Shown here: positions 95-18,071 of the stretch, in pieces | Layout: each line of letters starts with the position of its first letter | How positions within the stretch are numbered: position 1 is the stretch's first letter | Source of the DNA: Candidatus Nomurabacteria bacterium | GTDB lineage: Bacteria > Patescibacteriota > Minisyncoccia > Phycocordibacterales > Phycocordibacteraceae | Assembly (NCBI GenBank): GCA_943355045.1 | Contig: CALRDY010000003.1 | Coordinates: 1-18,071 of the forward strand | DNA: 18,071 nt | Reading direction: 5' to 3' | Notes under the pieces: model-generated | Told to the model about the DNA's origin: nothing | What the model saw: the letters and a program-made list of their open reading frames with translations, nothing else | The model's database searches: none | Program-made: the position numbers and the translations under genes

Positions 95-2728
95 TTAAAA
101 CTCCGCGGCGAGGTTGCCGTAGCCGGAGGTGTCGACCGGTTGGAAAGTGGCACGCTTTTCGTCGAAGAAGAGCTCGGTCGAGCCTGTCGGGCCGTTCCGG
201 TGCTTCTCGATGAGGATCTCGGCGATGTTCGGCCGGTCGCTGTCTTTGTTCATCTTGTCCTCGCGGTGGATGAACATCACGACGTCGGCGTCCTGTTCGA
301 TGGAGTTATGCACGATGAGGTCTCCGGCAACAAAATTGTGCGTGCCGGGCACTGTTGCGTCGTAGACCTCTTCAATGCCAAGTGGTGTGATAGAAGTGAT
401 TTCATCCCAATACACGTCGGATTCAGCAAGGTGCATAAGACCATCGTTCTTCAGCGCCTTCGCGACCTTTGCAAGCCGTGTGCGCGATACCCCCGTGGCC
501 GTGAGCGCCGAGCCGTTATACGCCGTCTGCAAATCATGTGCGACATCCCGCCAGCTCATACCAAGCGCATCCTTTGCAGAGCCGACCAGTTCCCAGACCT
601 CCGGCGGAAGCGTATCCGTGTTCGGGATGGGAGCGATCTTTTCGAGTGCTTGCGCGAGCTCGGCGACGATATCGCCTCGTGCGCCATAGGAGCCGACGAG
701 CGAGAGAAAGCGTGCTTGTACGGGTGCGCTTTGCACCTGCACCTGATAGCAAGGACGATAGCCTTTTTTCACACTCTCCCGTATCGAGCTCCAGATGCCG
801 AGGCGAAGCAGGAGATGTTGTACGTCTTCAGCGAGACCGCGGCTCGTGCTCGCATAATAAATCGCGGCAGACGGCGAGCGTCCGGGGAGCCTCTTCCACG
901 AAATGTTCCCGTCGGTTGCCCAAAGATGATGGAGGAAGAGCTGGATAGATATTGAATCGGAGGCGAACACTGCTTGCGGAATCCGCTTTTCATAAGAACG
1001 TACGGGCGCGATGCCGAGCGTCCGGTACCAAGCGGTAATCGGATGCGGCTTGCCGTGTGTCAGGTAATAAGGAGAAGGTAGGTAGGTGTGCCACCAATTC
1101 TTCTGCTTGATGCGGCGGGGTGTAATGCCGAAAAGGGTATGCGCGGCATGTTCTACCGCTGCAAGGTTCTTCGGGTCGGCGCTCGTGTAATGGATCGGTT
1201 GGCGCGGCAGTACACAGCCGTCACCGAGAAGATGCGCAAGCAGTATGAGCTCTTGGGTAGAAAGAAGCGACGGGGCGTTGCTCGCAGTGAGAAGACGCGG
1301 CGTGGCAAGGCGCTCGCCTTCAGAAAGCGCATCCAGTCGTTGCCACCCGTGGAGCGTTAGGAACTGATGATTGCCGGACGCCTTGATGCTGCGGCCGCTA
1401 CGGAGCTTGAGCGAGAAGACTCGTTTGCGTCCGCTCGGGAAGATGCGGCTTGCGAGCATAGGATGCAGTTGGTAGGTAGCATCCATTGAGACGAGCGGTA
1501 CAGACTCGCATCCGACCAAATCTTTAATGGGGATACGTTCGCCCGTATCGGCGCGTTGCACAAGAGTGTCGCCGGTAAGGCAGCCGGAGTCGCGCAGGTC
1601 GGAGAGGCGAGGCTTGCCGCCGCGCTGCTCGACCGCACGCGAGAGTTGCGAGAGCGCGATGACCGGCACTTCGAGCTCGCGCGCGAGCGACTTCAGGGAG
1701 CGCGAGATCTCGGTCACTTGCTGCACCATAGAGTCGGACGCTTTGGTCGAGGTCGGCGCCATGAGCTGGAGGTAGTCGACGACGATGAGCCCGATGCCGC
1801 GTTCGCGCTTCAGGCGGCGGGCGACCGCGCGCATCGCGAGGATGTTATTGCCCGGTTTGTCGTCGATGTAAATCGGCGCCTTGGAGAGTACCTCGAGCGC
1901 ATCGCGGATGCGGTTGAAGTCTTCCTCTTCTCGCACTTGGCCGGTGCGCAGTTTCCACGAGTTCACGAAGGACTCTGCCGCGAGCATGCGGTCGATGAGC
2001 TGTTCCGAGCTCATTTCAAGCGAGAAGATGCCGACCGGAACATTGTGGCGCACAGCGGCGTTCCGGGCGATGTCGAGCGCGAGCGAGGTTTTACCCATCG
2101 AGGGGCGCGCGGCGAGGATGATGAGGTCGGAAGGATGGAAGCCCGAGAGGAGGTTGTCGAGCGTCGGGAAGCCGGAAGGCACGCCGCGGATTCCATCTTC
2201 TTTTTTAGAAAGCGCTTCAATGCGGTCCCATGCTTCGTGCACCTTGTCGCCGATGGCAGTGAATTTGTGTGCGGCGGAGGCATTGCCGATGGCGTAGATG
2301 CTTTTCTCGGCCTCATCGAGCACTTCCATCGTCTCGCGCGCGTCGTCGAAGGCTGCTTCTGAAATGTTGTACGCGGCGTCGATGAGAGAGCGCATGAGGA
2401 ACTTGCGCGACACGAGCTCAGCGTAGTGGGAGAAGTTTCCCGGCGCAGGTGCCGAGCCCGCAAGCTCAGCTAAGTAACTCCTGCTTCCGGAGCGCTCGAG
2501 GAGTCCTTGATTTTGCAGTCGTTCGGAAAGAGATAGCTGATCGATCGGTTCTCCGCGGTCGGAGAGTTCGCGCATCGCCCCGAAAATAATCCGATGTTTC
2601 TCCGCATAAAAAGAATCGGGATGGATGAGGTCCGAGACGTCATGGATGGCGTCAGGCTTCAGAAGGAGGGCGCCGAGGAGCGCTCGTTCGGATTCGAGAG
2701 ATTGAGGAGGGACGCGGTCGGAGGCCAT
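95..2728 (-). CDS. dnaB: Replicative DNA helicase DnaB, intein-containing precursor
   Basis: Hexameric replicative helicase that unwinds DNA ahead of the fork. The precursor has 877 residues; removing the intein (residues 383-808) leaves 451, the normal DnaB length. The N-terminal domain opens with the typical PPQSLESERALLGALLL stretch. The RecA-like ATPase domain shows Walker A (ARPSMGKTS, about 207-215), Walker B (LIVVDYLQLM, 314-323) and, after the intein, SIEQDADVVMFIHRE and EKHRNGPTG. The ATG at 2728 is chosen because the family N-terminus starts here and an extended -10 box lies 8 nt upstream; no Shine-Dalgarno is visible. It follows cysS by 14 bp on the same strand. The extein halves join without loss at LRDSG/SIEQD, so helicase function depends on splicing. 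Product assignment is very secure. Confidence 0.97.
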   Translation of the reverse strand: MASDRVPPQSLESERALLGALLLKPDAIHDVSDLIHPDSFYAEKHRIIFGAMRELSDRGEPIDQLSLSERLQNQGLLERSGSRSYLAELAGSAPAPGNFSHYAELVSRKFLMRSLIDAAYNISEAAFDDARETMEVLDEAEKSIYAIGNASAAHKFTAIGDKVHEAWDRIEALSKKEDGIRGVPSGFPTLDNLLSGFHPSDLIILAARPSMGKTSLALDIARNAAVRHNVPVGIFSLEMSSEQLIDRMLAAESFVNSWKLRTGQVREEEDFNRIRDALEVLSKAPIYIDDKPGNNILAMRAVARRLKRERGIGLIVVDYLQLMAPTSTKASDSMVQQVTEISRSLKSLARELEVPVIALSQLSRAVEQRGGKPRLSDLRDSGCLTGDTLVQRADTGERIPIKDLVGCESVPLVSMDATYQLHPMLASRIFPSGRKRVFSLKLRSGRSIKASGNHQFLTLHGWQRLDALSEGERLATPRLLTASNAPSLLSTQELILLAHLLGDGCVLPRQPIHYTSADPKNLAAVEHAAHTLFGITPRRIKQKNWWHTYLPSPYYLTHGKPHPITAWYRTLGIAPVRSYEKRIPQAVFASDSISIQLFLHHLWATDGNISWKRLPGRSPSAAIYYASTSRGLAEDVQHLLLRLGIWSSIRESVKKGYRPCYQVQVQSAPVQARFLSLVGSYGARGDIVAELAQALEKIAPIPNTDTLPPEVWELVGSAKDALGMSWRDVAHDLQTAYNGSALTATGVSRTRLAKVAKALKNDGLMHLAESDVYWDEITSITPLGIEEVYDATVPGTHNFVAGDLIVHNSIEQDADVVMFIHREDKMNKDSDRPNIAEILIEKHRNGPTGSTELFFDEKRATFQPVDTSGYGNLAAEF
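305..1582 (-). mobile_element. DnaB intein with LAGLIDADG homing endonuclease
   Basis: Self-splicing protein element of 426 residues (precursor 383-808). Seen: it starts with Cys383 (CLTGDTLV, block A), carries a block-B-like KASGNHQFL (449-457), and ends VPGTHNFVAGDLIVHN with the His807-Asn808 pair, followed by Ser809 as the +1 nucleophile. Between the splicing halves lie two LAGLIDADG-like helices, LLAHLLGDG (Asp503) and LFLHHLWATDG (Asp606), each keeping its catalytic acid, so the endonuclease looks intact. A helix-turn-helix-like stretch (SWRDVAHDLQTAYNGS, about 725-740) precedes block F. Known: inteins at the same LRDxG/SIEQDAD site occur in cyanobacterial DnaB, for example the Synechocystis Ssp DnaB intein. 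Oddity: block B has Ser451 where the family usually has Thr. Boundaries are exact; the activity of splicing and endonuclease is inferred. Confidence 0.95.
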
Positions 2729-6928: not shown

Positions 6929-6969
6929 AAACAAAAAACGCGGCGCTTTGAGCGCCGCGTTTTTTGTTT
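6929..6969. terminator. Bidirectional Rho-independent terminator between rplI and rpmA
   Basis: A perfect 19-bp inverted repeat (6929-6947 and 6951-6969) with a 3-nt loop (TTG). The GC core is CGCGGCGCT/AGCGCCGCG, flanked by six A on the left and six T on the right, so it ends transcripts in both directions. It fits the convergent rplI (+) and rpmA (-), whose stops lie 10-12 nt away. Confidence 0.95.
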
Positions 6970-8708: not shown

Positions 8709-8792
8709 ATCTTTTACGACGCGCTACTAGAGCGCGTCGTAAAAGATGGCAACATTTTGCAACCGTCAAAAGCACAGTCGCAAAATGTTGCC
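8709..8792. repeat. Two abutting perfect hairpins
   Basis: The first inverted repeat has 17-bp arms (8709-8725 ATCTTTTACGACGCGCT and 8731-8747) with a 5-nt loop, ACTAG. The second begins at the next base with 13-bp arms (8748-8760 GGCAACATTTTGC and 8780-8792) and a 19-nt loop. Both are perfect. Neither is followed by a T-run, so they are not ordinary terminators. They lie downstream of the plus-strand terminator and downstream of the minus-strand 60-residue gene. Function is unknown. Confidence 0.9.
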
Positions 8793-12336: not shown

Positions 12337-12342
12337 GATTCG

Positions 12343-12458
12343 TCCCGTTAGAAATAGGACGCGGACGACATTGCTCCCGCATCGCACCTATTCAAATACA
12401 TATCTATCATGGTTATAATCATACCTTACTAGCATCGTGTCCGCGATTTCTAACGGGA
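12343..12458 (-). repeat. Intergenic element 1 with TCCCGTTAGA terminal inverted repeats
   Basis: Occupies the gap between murG and gltX. The 13-bp terminal arms, TCCCGTTAGAAAT (12343-12355) and ATTTCTAACGGGA (12446-12458), are perfect; a further GCGGAC/GTCCGC match continues the stem after a small bulge. The murG TAG stop (12450-12452) lies inside one arm. The interior is AT-rich with possible -10 boxes for gltX (minus strand TATGAT and TATAAC near 12408-12418). It shares ends and length with element 2 at 14708-14826. Confidence 0.85.
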
Positions 12459-13592
12459 TTCGTGTGAGAGTGCGAGCGCGAGCACTTCGCCTGCGAGGAT
12501 GCGCGCGGCATCTGGGTCGGTAAAGCCTTCGGCGGCTGCGCCCATGCGCTTTGCGAGCGCGGGGTCGTTCAGGATGCGTTCTATCTCAGAGACCAGAATG
12601 TGCGGCGTGAGATTCTCCTCGTCGAGTACGATCGCGGCACCAGTCTTCGCGTACGCGTACGCATTGGTGCGCTGGTCGTGGCTAATTGATTCGGGAATCG
12701 GGATGAGGATCGCCGGCTTCTTCCAGAGACCGATCTCGGCGATGGAGTTGGCACCCGCGCGCGAGACGACGAGGCTCGCCACGCCCGCCGCTCGCTGGAG
12801 CGATATTTCCGAGAGATAATTGATGGGATTGTAGCGAGACGCATGCGGGTCCTTCCCGAGCACGACCTTTGCAATTCCTTGGACATCTTTGAAATTGGCT
12901 TGACCGGTTTGGTGGATGACATTTGCTCTCGCAACGAGGCGCGGGAGCGAAGTGAGCACCATCTCGTTTATCTTTACCGCGCCCTGAGAGCCGCCGAGGA
13001 TGAGGATGGTCGGAATATCTTTCTCGAGCCCGAGGTATTGCTGCGCGCCCTCGATTTCGACGCGCATGAGCGCCTTGCGGATGGGGATGCCGGTGCGGGC
13101 GATCCTGTCTTGCACGTTCTTCGGAAAATACTGAGCCGCGCTCTCGAAGGAGATCGCTATTTTCTTCGCGAATTTTGCGGCGAGCAGATTCGCTCGGCCC
13201 GGTTTGGCGTCTGATTCGTGGATGATGACCGGGATGCGGAGCAGGCGCGCGGCGAGCACGGTCGGCACGCTGCCGTAGCCGCCTTTGCTCACGACCACAT
13301 CTGGATACAGGCGAAACAGCGTGAAGAGCGCTGAAATGGTTCCGGCAAGCGTGACGAATGCATCGGTAATGTTTTGTACGGACGCGTAGCGGCGCATCTT
13401 CCCTGCCGGGACGCGGATGAAGGTAATGCCATTTTCGAAGAGAGCTTTCTCATCGAATGAATTCGGCGCGAGATAGTACAGCGCCGGCGCGATGAGTCGC
13501 TTTTCGCGAACGAGGTCATTGATCGCTTCGGCGATCGCGATAATCGGATAAAAATGCCCGCCCGTCCCTCCCCCCGTAAACGCAATGGTCAT
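12450..13592 (-). CDS. murG: UDP-GlcNAc:lipid I N-acetylglucosaminyltransferase MurG
   Basis: Peripheral inner-membrane GT-B enzyme that adds GlcNAc to lipid I to make lipid II; 380 residues. Seen: the N-terminal glycine loop TGGGTGGHFYP (6-16), VVSKGGYGSVP (100-110), HESDAKPGRAN (125-135), the C-domain loop LILGGSQGA (197-205) and SRAGANSIAEIG (277-288) with the acidic residue used for the sugar nucleotide. The start fits MTIAFTGGGTGG, with a perfect extended -10 (TGATATAAT) 6 nt upstream, so it can be transcribed as a leaderless message as well as from ftsW, whose stop is 19 bp away. The last codons and the stop run into the terminal repeat of intergenic element 1 (...HESR, TAG). Confidence 0.97.
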   Translation of the reverse strand: MTIAFTGGGTGGHFYPIIAIAEAINDLVREKRLIAPALYYLAPNSFDEKALFENGITFIRVPAGKMRRYASVQNITDAFVTLAGTISALFTLFRLYPDVVVSKGGYGSVPTVLAARLLRIPVIIHESDAKPGRANLLAAKFAKKIAISFESAAQYFPKNVQDRIARTGIPIRKALMRVEIEGAQQYLGLEKDIPTILILGGSQGAVKINEMVLTSLPRLVARANVIHQTGQANFKDVQGIAKVVLGKDPHASRYNPINYLSEISLQRAAGVASLVVSRAGANSIAEIGLWKKPAILIPIPESISHDQRTNAYAYAKTGAAIVLDEENLTPHILVSEIERILNDPALAKRMGAAAEGFTDPDAARILAGEVLALALSHESR

Positions 13593-13598
13593 ATGCGG

Positions 13599-13607
13599 AT
13601 TATATCA
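13599..13607 (-). promoter_or_regulatory. Extended -10 promoter for murG
   Basis: Minus strand TGA TATAAT, a full consensus, with exactly six bases to the ATG. It lies in the 19-bp ftsW-murG gap and is the strongest leaderless-type promoter in the window. Confidence 0.6.
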
Positions 13608-13611
13608 GTTT

Positions 13612-14709
13612 TCAAGCCCTTTTATGCGCAGCAACATTGAGGACGAGTCCGCACATGATCAATACCGCGACGAGCGCGGTTCCGCCGTGGGAGAGGAATG
13701 GCAGCGGGAGGCCGGTAAGCGGGACGATACCGAGCATCGCCGAGATATTGGTAAACGCTTGCAGGACGATGATGAAAGAGAAGCCGAGCGCGACAAGTCC
13801 GCCGAAGAGGTCGGATGAGTGTCCCGCTATCGCGATGCCGCGCGCCGCAAGCGCGACGAAAAGCGCGAGCAGGATCAGCGAGCCGATGAATCCGGCTTCC
13901 TCGGCAAAGACCGCGAAGATTGAATCGCCCGTGGGTTCCGGCAGGTAGCTGAACTTCTCGACACTCTGCCCGAGACCTCTCCCGAGGAGCCCGCCAGAGC
14001 CGATCGCGATCAATGACTGCTGAATCTGGTAGCCGCTCCCCAAGGAATTCGCTGAGGGGTTCCAGAATGTCTGGACTCTCTTGAGCACGTAGGGCCGCAT
14101 GGCGACGAGGATGACGAGCGCGAGCAGGACGCCGATCGTAAGGATGCCGAAATCGCGCCAGGGAGCTCCCGCGGCGAAGTACATCGTCATGCCGGTCACG
14201 AGGATGAGAAGCGTCGTCGACGTATTCGGTTGAGCAATCAGGAGGATGACTGGCGCTGCGAGTAGGGCGACAAAAGGGATCAGTCCTTTCTTCGGATTCG
14301 CGAGCTGCTGCGCATGGGACGCGAGCCACCACGCGAGCACCAGCACGAAGCCGATCTTCAGGAATTCTGCAGGCTGTACGGTCGTGAAGCCGAGGTCGAT
14401 CCAGCGTGTCGCGCCGTTCGCGTGGAGCCCGATGCCAGGGACGAAGACGAGTGCAGTAAAGAGTATCGATAGGACGTAGAGGAAAGGTGCGGACCGTTTT
14501 ATGAACGCGAGCGGGATAGTGCGCACAAGGAAGAGCATCAGGAATCCGAAACCGAGGCCGAGACCCGCTTGGATCATGATATCTTGCGATATCGAGCTGC
14601 TTTCTCGGGCAAGCAGGCCGAGCTCGGCCGAGGAAAAGATTGCAAAGCCAGCAAAGGCGATGCTGAGCACGAGTAGGAAGAATACCCGATCGCCGGAGAT
14701 GGCTTTCAT
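13612..14709 (-). CDS. ftsW: SEDS-family peptidoglycan glycosyltransferase FtsW
   Basis: Polytopic inner-membrane enzyme that polymerises lipid II during division; 365 residues with about ten hydrophobic segments. Family motifs: NGATRWIDLGFTTVQPAEFLKI (98-119), QPNTSTTLLI (160-169; usually QPDxGT), GSGGLLGRGLGQSVEKFSYLPEPTGDSIFAVFAEEAGFIG (237-276, cited by its ends) with Asp262 in the position of the catalytic Asp297 of E. coli FtsW, and the C-terminal PLTGLPLPFLSHGG. FtsW is preferred to RodA because of the neighbours mraY and murG and the LPEPTGD loop; RodA cannot be excluded by eye. The ATG overlaps the inner end of intergenic element 2 (CTAACGGGATG). A cognate class B PBP is not in the window. 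Confidence 0.9.
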   Translation of the reverse strand: MKAISGDRVFFLLVLSIAFAGFAIFSSAELGLLARESSSISQDIMIQAGLGLGFGFLMLFLVRTIPLAFIKRSAPFLYVLSILFTALVFVPGIGLHANGATRWIDLGFTTVQPAEFLKIGFVLVLAWWLASHAQQLANPKKGLIPFVALLAAPVILLIAQPNTSTTLLILVTGMTMYFAAGAPWRDFGILTIGVLLALVILVAMRPYVLKRVQTFWNPSANSLGSGYQIQQSLIAIGSGGLLGRGLGQSVEKFSYLPEPTGDSIFAVFAEEAGFIGSLILLALFVALAARGIAIAGHSSDLFGGLVALGFSFIIVLQAFTNISAMLGIVPLTGLPLPFLSHGGTALVAVLIMCGLVLNVAAHKRA

Positions 14710-14826
14710 CCCGTTAGAGGTAGGAAATCGGAGATTTCCGTACGATTACTGATAATGTTTCTTTTCTTGCAGGCATCTTGTCCAGGATATCATGCATATT
14801 TCCTCGGTTTTGACCTCTAACGGGAT
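14708..14826 (-). repeat. Intergenic element 2 with ATCCCGTTAGAGGT terminal inverted repeats
   Basis: Fills the gap between mraY and ftsW. The 14-bp arms, ATCCCGTTAGAGGT (14708-14721) and its exact reverse complement (14813-14826), enclose 91 nt. The ftsW start codon overlaps one arm, and the mraY stop is 5 nt outside the other. A second, inner hairpin (GGAAATC GGA GATTTCC, 14723-14739) lies directly inside the ftsW-proximal arm. No ORF or clear -10 was found inside. Confidence 0.85.
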
Positions 14827-14831
14827 TCATA

Positions 14832-17471: not shown

Positions 17472-18071
17472 TTATGTCCCAATCACGCACTTGAAAGCAA
17501 TCCAGGGCTGGGTGTTATTGTGCGCGGCACCACTTGCTCCTGAATAGCCGGAAGCAACACCTACCGCAGACTCCCAACCGCTAAGGCCCGCTGCTCCACC
17601 CGATAGTGCTGGCGCTTCGCTTGGAGTAAGCGCATGAGCCTGTTCCCCACCCGCTCCGCCAAGCGTGGTGCTATTTGCGCCGCCGACTGAGGCGGAAGTG
17701 ATGCGACCCGCTGCGCTGCCGCCCAGGTTGTCCATGCCAATCATGACGCGCCCTCTTAGATCGGGCAGGTTGAAAGTCGTGGAGCCGTCGCCCACGCCGT
17801 ACGTCGTTCCGATGATTGAAAAGAGAGTGGCGTAGGTCGTGCGCGAGACGGCTTGCCCGTAGGCTTCGAGAGTGTTTGATGGGATAGTTGCGCCCGCGTA
17901 GCAGCCGACGAAACCGGCTGGGAGCGCGCCGCCGCCCATGGATCCCCAAACTGTTCCATTACAAAATTCCATACCTTTCGAAGTCGAGTTGTATCGCTGC
18001 TGCCCTTCATGAGCGGCGTCACAGGTTGCAGAGGTATTTCCAAATTTCACTTCGCCGGTAACATCAAGCTT
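17472..18071 (-). CDS. Secreted protein with phage tail-collar domain (N-terminus outside window)
   Basis: The last 199 residues of a larger protein; the frame is open to the window edge (KLDVTGEVKFGNTSATCD...), so a GTG at 18050 is an internal Val codon and not a start. Seen: a two-cysteine segment (Cys17 and Cys37, TCDAAHEGQQRYNS...MEFCNG), then the collar domain PAGFVGCYAG...YATLFSIIGTTYGVGDGSTTFNLPDLRGRVMIG (51-112), a glycine/serine/alanine-rich stretch and the family ending HNNTQPWIAFKCVI (184-197). Tail-collar domains sit at phage fibre tips, but CPR genomes, as I recall, carry many stand-alone secreted versions with LDVTGEVKFG leaders. No other phage gene is near, so a cell-surface adhesin-like protein is more likely than prophage remains. 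Confidence 0.85.
   Translation of the reverse strand, partial: KLDVTGEVKFGNTSATCDAAHEGQQRYNSTSKGMEFCNGTVWGSMGGGALPAGFVGCYAGATIPSNTLEAYGQAVSRTTYATLFSIIGTTYGVGDGSTTFNLPDLRGRVMIGMDNLGGSAAGRITSASVGGANSTTLGGAGGEQAHALTPSEAPALSGGAAGLSGWESAVGVASGYSGASGAAHNNTQPWIAFKCVIGT

Follow-up and report, generated by a model that had tools for sequence, protein, structure and literature searches.

Miniature inverted-repeat transposable elements (MITEs) of the Correia type rely on ordinary transposases. This report deals with two short intergenic elements that invite comparison with such repeats, found in a stretch of 18,071 nucleotides from a Candidatus Nomurabacteria bacterium (contig CALRDY010000003.1; the whole stretch is called the window), where they lie among minus-strand genes, one between murG and gltX and the other between a mraY-like gene and ftsW. 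As summarised in a 2024 review of MITEs, whose main text contains neither "GIY-YIG" nor "Patescibacteria", the Correia element of Neisseria resembles them in its size (approximately 100–200 bp), its terminal inverted repeats, its target duplication, its frequent position directly upstream of genes, its promoter-like sequences and its non-autonomous character (PMC10969869). The elements described here differ from it in having a coding partner with a GIY-YIG nuclease, in targeting a start codon, which is rebuilt, and in keeping an open frame. The Rickettsia palindromic elements, covered by the same review, are also small palindromic mobile repeats compatible with the reading frame of the host, and they integrate within genes as in-frame fusions (PMC10969869). 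Here, in contrast, insertion takes place at the start codon, and the frame of the element ends ahead of the rebuilt ATG or overlaps it with its stop.

Homing GIY-YIG endonucleases copy into one allelic site by repair, while Penelope-like elements use a reverse transcriptase; in both cases mobility is tied to a GIY-YIG nuclease, the feature that likens them to the present elements, but here the sites are dispersed beside many different open reading frames (ORFs) instead of being one cognate allelic site, and the nuclease is the only gene, accompanied by inverted repeats and a 4-bp duplication. The UPF0213 proteins and Slx1 share the GIY-YIG fold and give the best sequence and fold matches of the modelled nuclease, and neither is known as a mobile gene with terminal repeats. 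In the Candidate Phyla Radiation (CPR), one paper describes rRNA genes with non-intron-like GIY-YIG insertions and with ORF-less insertions that are mostly shorter than 200 bp (PMC11270868). These share with our elements the host group, the GIY-YIG proteins and the short ORF-less insertions, and differ in lying in rRNA genes; the passages on them mention no inverted repeats. Patescibacteria have been presented in another study as predicted donors of GIY-YIG genes (PMC12455944). Our literature search, which covered open-licence papers, found among the papers listed none naming a GIY-YIG transposon or these repeats.

Having placed the two elements among known systems, we propose, with a probability of roughly 0.78, that the two are non-autonomous miniatures of a Patescibacteria insertion element, one that targets start codons and is driven by a GIY-YIG nuclease. 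Element 1 (12343–12458, minus strand, 116 nt, of the GAAAT/ATTTC arm class) fills the murG–gltX gap with its right end toward gltX, and element 2 (14709–14825, minus strand, 117 nt, of the GAGGT/ACCTC arm class) fills the gap between the mraY-like gene and ftsW. The original prediction had noticed that the two gaps have matching ends, and these are indeed 13-bp terminal inverted repeats. The arms of element 1 (12343–12355 on the gltX side and 12446–12458 on the murG side, the latter providing the TAG stop, at 12450, of the murG ORF) are 100% complementary; those of element 2 lie at 14709–14721 on the ftsW side, where the A of the rebuilt ftsW ATG is supplied by the outermost base, 14709, and at 14813–14825 on the mraY side. 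The complementary stretch at element 2 is 14 bp long (14708–14721/14813–14826, 100%), and its 14th pair, A/T, together with the preceding GAA, corresponds to the flanking 4-bp duplication, outside the element. As had also been claimed, the inner bases of the arms differ between the two copies (AA/TT in one, GG/CC in the other) and yet complementarity is kept in both. Within the window, TCTAACGGGA occurs exactly only at the four arm places, and allowing two mismatches gives 7 matches against 12.4 expected, so a single arm by itself is unremarkable there; what is remarkable is the pairing of the arms and the presence of the repeats elsewhere.

An exact 4-bp direct repeat lies on both sides of each element: TTCG at 12339–12342 and 12459–12462 for element 1, and TTCA (TGAA on the gene strand) at 14705–14708, within the ftsW start, and 14826–14829 for element 2. 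The stretch from gltX to mraY was searched against 92 genomes of the genus, 90 of which matched, and the returned loci of 29 relatives were examined, one relative being unusable at each junction (L128 and L125). At the murG/gltX junction the aligned flanks of the element overlap by exactly four bases in 17 relatives, which thus carry a single copy of the repeat, and by three bases in 3; 4 relatives have an element and 4 show other short differences. At the ftsW/mraY junction the exact 4-base overlap is found in 15 relatives, an element in 6, and an unclear arrangement in 7. In one relative that is 86–90% identical at the locus (G069), element 1 is missing and the ftsW start is occupied by an element of another kind, and another relative (L114, from G035 C9) has, at the ftsW/mraY junction, an element nested within another element, with its own duplication. 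Since the direct repeat that flanks each element is single in relatives without the element, both elements are, as judged by this comparison of sequences, insertions.

Further copies exist, and their arms are complementary; the original prediction named the lack of either as its refutation, and it was not refuted. The genome from which the window comes contains 17 paired copies, 16 of 78–118 nt and one of 277 nt, besides three unpaired near-matches (C35, C13 and C44) that were left out of the counts. The exact pair pattern is found in 20 of the 105 genomes of the family and in 27 of 380 genomes sampled over the phylum, and the same pattern read backwards, used as a control, gave no match in either set. 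For the analyses that follow, 116 short elements were used, comprising the 16 from the genome itself and 100 hand-picked from relatives (85 of the 132 family pairs outside that genome, two 29-nt copies and 13 copies from the phylum sample), a set in which copies of 62–65 nt are under-sampled. The short elements, of 29–120 nt, have short frames only and no transposase gene, as is typical of MITEs, and elements up to 91% alike occupy different sites in different genomes. The 29-nt copies occur in a genome (G010) with other copies and are barely more than the two arms. In this genome and three others (G082, G054 and G098) there are also copies of 52–68 nt in which two hairpins lie between the arms. 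Two repeat types that are unrelated to each other, TCCCGTTAGA and CCCTGTTAAAT, share this build; of the copies in G010, few have a 4-bp duplication or lie at an ATG. A solitary right end, TTCTAACGGGATGAA, without a left end, was seen at approximately 1082–1096 of locus L040 (G000 C35:4081), its TAA closing a LemA-like ORF and its ATG opening an M48-like ORF (names given by eye); it is possibly the remnant of an element.

As for the site of insertion, identical 4-bp flanks surround 97 of the 116 short elements (TGAA in 53, TGCG in 15, TGGA in 12, TGAG in 7 and others in 10), a target duplication that, together with the empty sites at both window loci, agrees with what is expected of a MITE. The left end follows an ATG in 97 of the 116, and a rebuilt ATG is present at the right end in 107 of the 116, a figure favoured by our having assigned orientation by the end that gives ATG and for which the chance level is about an eighth. 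When each of the 84 sites is represented by a single element, the counts are 68 for identical flanks, 67 for the left ATG and 75 for the rebuilt one, and only 4 of the 9 copies shorter than 76 nt have each of these features. The point of insertion is thus A|TGNN, where the last A of the element and the duplicated TGNN restore the ATG of the host. In the genome of origin 16 of the 17 copies adjoin the start of an ORF (15 ATG and 1 GTG), the shortest of these ORFs having 38 codons; the host genes include ftsW (assigned by Pfam) and ORFs that resemble, by eye, ssb, L36 and L3.

The elements also preserve reading frames. Among the 107 elements of at least 76 nt, 67 have a length that is a multiple of three (binomial p = 6e-10, with shared descent ignored), and the frame is open from the left start codon to the TAA of TCTAACGGG in 56 of the 63 elements that have such a length and a left start codon, compared with a mean of 14.5 and a maximum of 22 for shuffled interiors and with 10 for reverse complements; with one element per site the proportion is 39/42. 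Element 2 is an open-frame copy, in which the displaced host ATG opens a frame that closes at the TAA of the repeat (14714–14830, minus strand; MNPVRGQNRGNMHDILDKMPARKETLSVIVRKSPISYL). Of the 67 elements in the 114–120-nt class, 66% contain, in this frame, an ORF of at least 8 codons that starts at an inner ATG, versus 6% in each of the other frames, and element 1 has one (12348–12422, minus strand; MIITMIDMYLNRCDAGAMSSASYF), which stops at the TAA of the repeat. The repeat dictates how these short ORFs end, and their remainder looks variable by eye. In 17 of 41 cases a −10-like hexamer (at least 5 of 6 bases) lies upstream of the inner ATG, against a mean of 2.4 and a maximum of 9 after shuffling; as the hexamer is absent from most elements, a promoter is not a general feature of them.

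The short elements share their ends with the 277-nt copy (C19), the putatively self-sufficient form, as MITEs do with a larger coding element. The sole gene of this copy is a GIY-YIG ORF of 94 aa, and the coding form in general measures approximately 277–280 bp and ends in the 13-bp terminal inverted repeats TCCCGTTAGANNN and NNNTCTAACGGGA. Its protein matches PF01541 (GIY-YIG) with 57.8 bits, well above the curated cut-off of 22.6; Pfam detected no other domain in the coding copy and NCBIfam gave no match, so that the recognised transposase (DDE, HUH, serine or tyrosine) of a classical insertion sequence was not detected in it. The closest sequence match is UPF0213 BH0048 (E = 2.5e-9), and the closest folds of the structure model (predicted local distance difference test score, pLDDT, of 88) are UPF0213 and the branched-DNA nuclease Slx1, with E values of 1.4e-3 and weaker and template modelling (TM) scores of approximately 0.5–0.6. 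The first codons of the C19 ORF, ATGAATCCCGTTAGA, are the duplication plus the repeat, and its end, CTAACGGGATGA, is the repeat plus the duplication. The MNPVR start and SLTG end of the small Patescibacteria proteins of this family thus exist because these codons are the terminal repeats; among the 120 listed of 2862 homologs found, 99 have a PVR-like start, 16 start at the next Met and 5 are different, and 114 have the LTG ending.

Both repeats are present in 77 of the best 80 of 420 loci found in GTDB contigs, and identical 4-bp flanks in 52 of these 77. An ATG or GTG is rebuilt in 65 of the 77. In the 64 nuclease loci with enough sequence, the ORF from the rebuilt start has a median length of 289 codons, compared with 24 for 2891 other ATGs, and 59 of the 64 such ORFs have at least 50 codons or run off the locus. 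The titles of the records name Kaiser-, Zambryski-, Lipton-, Doudna- and Levybacteria, among others; a few name Omnitrophota, Ratteibacteria, Desulfobacteraceae and Syntrophaceae, which may reflect misbinned contigs or transfer. As for a vector, searches for the nuclease found none, given that 27 stretches of IMG/VR matched a pattern with none confirmed and that PLSDB plasmids and phage records gave no match.

The nuclease and the short elements tend to occur in the same genomes. Taking as close those nucleases that score at least 90 bits, a cut set after the list had been viewed, 19 genomes of the phylum sample have a close nuclease, 27 have short elements and 14 have both (p = 1.7e-14, with relatedness ignored), and in the family the numbers are 11, 20 and 9 (p = 2.5e-6, with the same proviso). 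Of the 19 close-nuclease genomes in the phylum sample, 17 have repeats of the CCCGTTAG type (one of them mismatched) and one (G419) has CCCCGTGAGATA; in the other (G382) no repeats were found. More distant GIY-YIG ORFs are accompanied by other inverted repeats (CCCTGTTAAAT, CCCCGTGAGATA and unrelated ones of 12–22 nt). Seven of 19 distant family loci score above every control pair, and two (L083 and L085) carry a repeat type seen elsewhere. In 20 chosen loci the type of repeat tracks the lineage of the nuclease, with means of 62–67% alike for nucleases with the same repeat versus 47–52% otherwise. Taken together, the distant homologs and their unrelated repeats suggest that there may be several such GIY-YIG lineages. 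Short elements with two of the other repeat types are present in 7 and 10 of the 105 genomes; where a verified nuclease carries the corresponding repeat, two genomes (G067 and G098) have matching short elements and two (G104 and G082) are without them. Unrelated perfect inverted repeats of 12–22 nt enclose the distant GIY-YIG ORFs of loci L086, L087, L091, L092 and L098.

The original prediction spoke of a "maintained stem", and the pairing data bear it out. Pairing was evaluated in 114 of the 116 short elements (the two 29-nt copies being excluded) and in the 77 nuclease copies, and arm positions 1–13 are nearly always paired, with a drop to the chance level at position 14. In the short copies, positions 11–13 pair in 111–114 of the 114, compared with 77–88 expected for independent arms, and in the nuclease copies position 13 pairs in 76 of the 77 versus 33 expected; the positions that covary strongly are 11–13 in the former and 1 and 13 in the latter. 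Inside the nuclease ORFs there is a second stem, whose spacing from the right end does not vary and in which the codons for LRKRF pair with those for RLKRFL and changes are compensated. It reaches at least 12 bp in 37 of the 61 in-frame ORFs (of 77), versus 4.0 (maximum 8) after within-column shuffling of synonymous codons. A 53-copy class of short elements likewise shows a second stem, close to that end, with two covarying pairs (48/53 versus 28 expected, and 44/53 versus 25), scored in a fixed register that was chosen by looking at the sequences; in element 1 its arms in that register are CGCGGAC at 12360–12366 (gene-strand positions −24 to −18) and GTCCGCG at 12439–12445 (gene-strand positions 14–20). 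The mismatches in the second stem are A.C in 33 cases versus G.T in 21, a split that favours neither strand as the folded one, and the consensus fold of the 53 class members contains the terminal stem and three pairs only.

These observations can be accommodated in one scheme. The element would insert at a start codon between A and TGNN and duplicate four bases, the nuclease acting on the arm-paired element and the target being opened with a 4-nt stagger at A|TGNN; the nuclease would presumably cut both element and target, and would also move the short copies in trans. On the left, the host ATG would stay before the element and start the frame of the element itself (ATGAATCCCGTTAGA, that is, MNPVR), while on the right the last base of the element, A, and the right-hand TGNN would restore the host ATG. 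The frame of the element stops at that ATGA in the nuclease copies and, in the short ones, at a TCTAA that lies 4 nt before it, and the host gene could therefore be translated by re-initiation at the rebuilt ATG, a translational coupling that, to judge from the frames, would keep it on. The paired arms may be recognised as a folded strand or a junction, and reading of the fold rather than of the inner sequence would be the easiest explanation for the coexistence of different arm bases in one genome, since an enzyme of this kind would accept arms that differ as long as they are complementary. We lean, on somewhat better than even odds, toward a new kind of DNA transposon of 277 bp whose sole enzyme, a GIY-YIG nuclease of approximately 90 residues, reads the paired arms by shape more than by inner bases, and which lands on a start codon, borrows its ATG and returns a rebuilt one.

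Several facts weigh against the proposal. Element 1 is located 7 nt upstream of the gltX ATG and not inside a start codon, five of the nine copies shorter than 76 nt have no duplication and five of the nine no ATG, and the flanks of 25 of the 77 nuclease copies are imperfect; moreover, GIY-YIG enzymes are not known to leave 4-bp duplications. Transposition was not observed in action, and there is no sign of a very recent burst, because copies at different sites within a single genome reach no more than 85% identity. Four family nucleases have TACCGTTAG repeats, whereas the short copies that were counted have TCCC. Repeats above the control are lacking in 10 of the 19 distant family homologs and around C30, another small GIY-YIG gene of the genome of origin. 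Finally, no close nuclease was found in 11 of the 20 family genomes or 13 of the 27 phylum genomes with short elements. This last point, and the fact that catalysis by the nuclease is predicted only, favour the possibility that a mobile element with the same repeats is moved by some other transposase and that the GIY-YIG gene is a passenger or a helper. We regard this as unlikely, for the nuclease is the only gene of the coding copies, the repeats stand at a fixed distance from it in 77 of 80 copies, several GIY-YIG lineages have different repeats of their own, and nuclease and short elements co-occur.

The second alternative was part of the original prediction, which had left a choice between a small MITE-like element and a role in RNA, here a conserved processing stem, leader or attenuator ahead of cell-wall and translation genes. 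The arms and the second stem do keep their pairing, the elements directly precede genes, and the −10-like boxes and short ORFs recall leaders. Nevertheless, at each of the two sites most of the 29 relatives are without the element, with a single copy of the 4-bp sequence there, some have a different element at the same site, nested copies exist, the host genes are unrelated (by their names, assigned by eye) and the Rfam covariance search of the window returned no match at the gathering score. The MITE-like half of that prediction therefore stands, on the duplications, the empty sites and the many sites occupied, and an RNA function as the reason for the existence of these elements is very improbable, although an inserted copy may still exert an effect as RNA. 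Least credible of all are cassettes like the attC sites of integrons or hairpins of the repetitive extragenic palindromic (REP) type, moved single-stranded by IntI or a Y1 transposase, which the size, the hairpin ends, the GTTAGA/TCTAAC arms and the 62- and 29-nt copies bring to mind, but which seem at odds with an arm order that is inside out relative to the attC consensus RYYYAAC..GTTRRRY and with 4-bp duplications at dispersed start codons, since those routes are not known to leave any.

Elsewhere in the window, a DnaB helicase gene (95–2728, minus strand) contains an in-frame intein, with Intein_splicing and LAGLIDADG_3 matches within the DnaB_C domain, and a gene for a Phage Tail Collar domain protein (17472–18071, minus strand) runs off the end of the contig. 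Three long inverted repeats at 6929–6969 and 8709–8792, with arms of 17–19 nt that are 89–100% complementary and short loops, look like terminators. A tRNA search found none.

The enzymes known to move DNA include the DDE, HUH, tyrosine, serine and Cas1-like classes, and a GIY-YIG nuclease is not known to drive elements such as these; on balance, we think it would probably be a new class of enzyme moving DNA. If this is true, a class of nucleases joins the short list of DNA-moving enzymes, with a member small enough for direct biochemistry, and Patescibacteria host a mobile element that can land in essential genes and leave them intact, the start codon being restored by the target duplication. 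It would also offer a possible explanation for the so far unexplained GIY-YIG and short insertions that an earlier study describes in the rRNA genes of CPR bacteria (PMC11270868).

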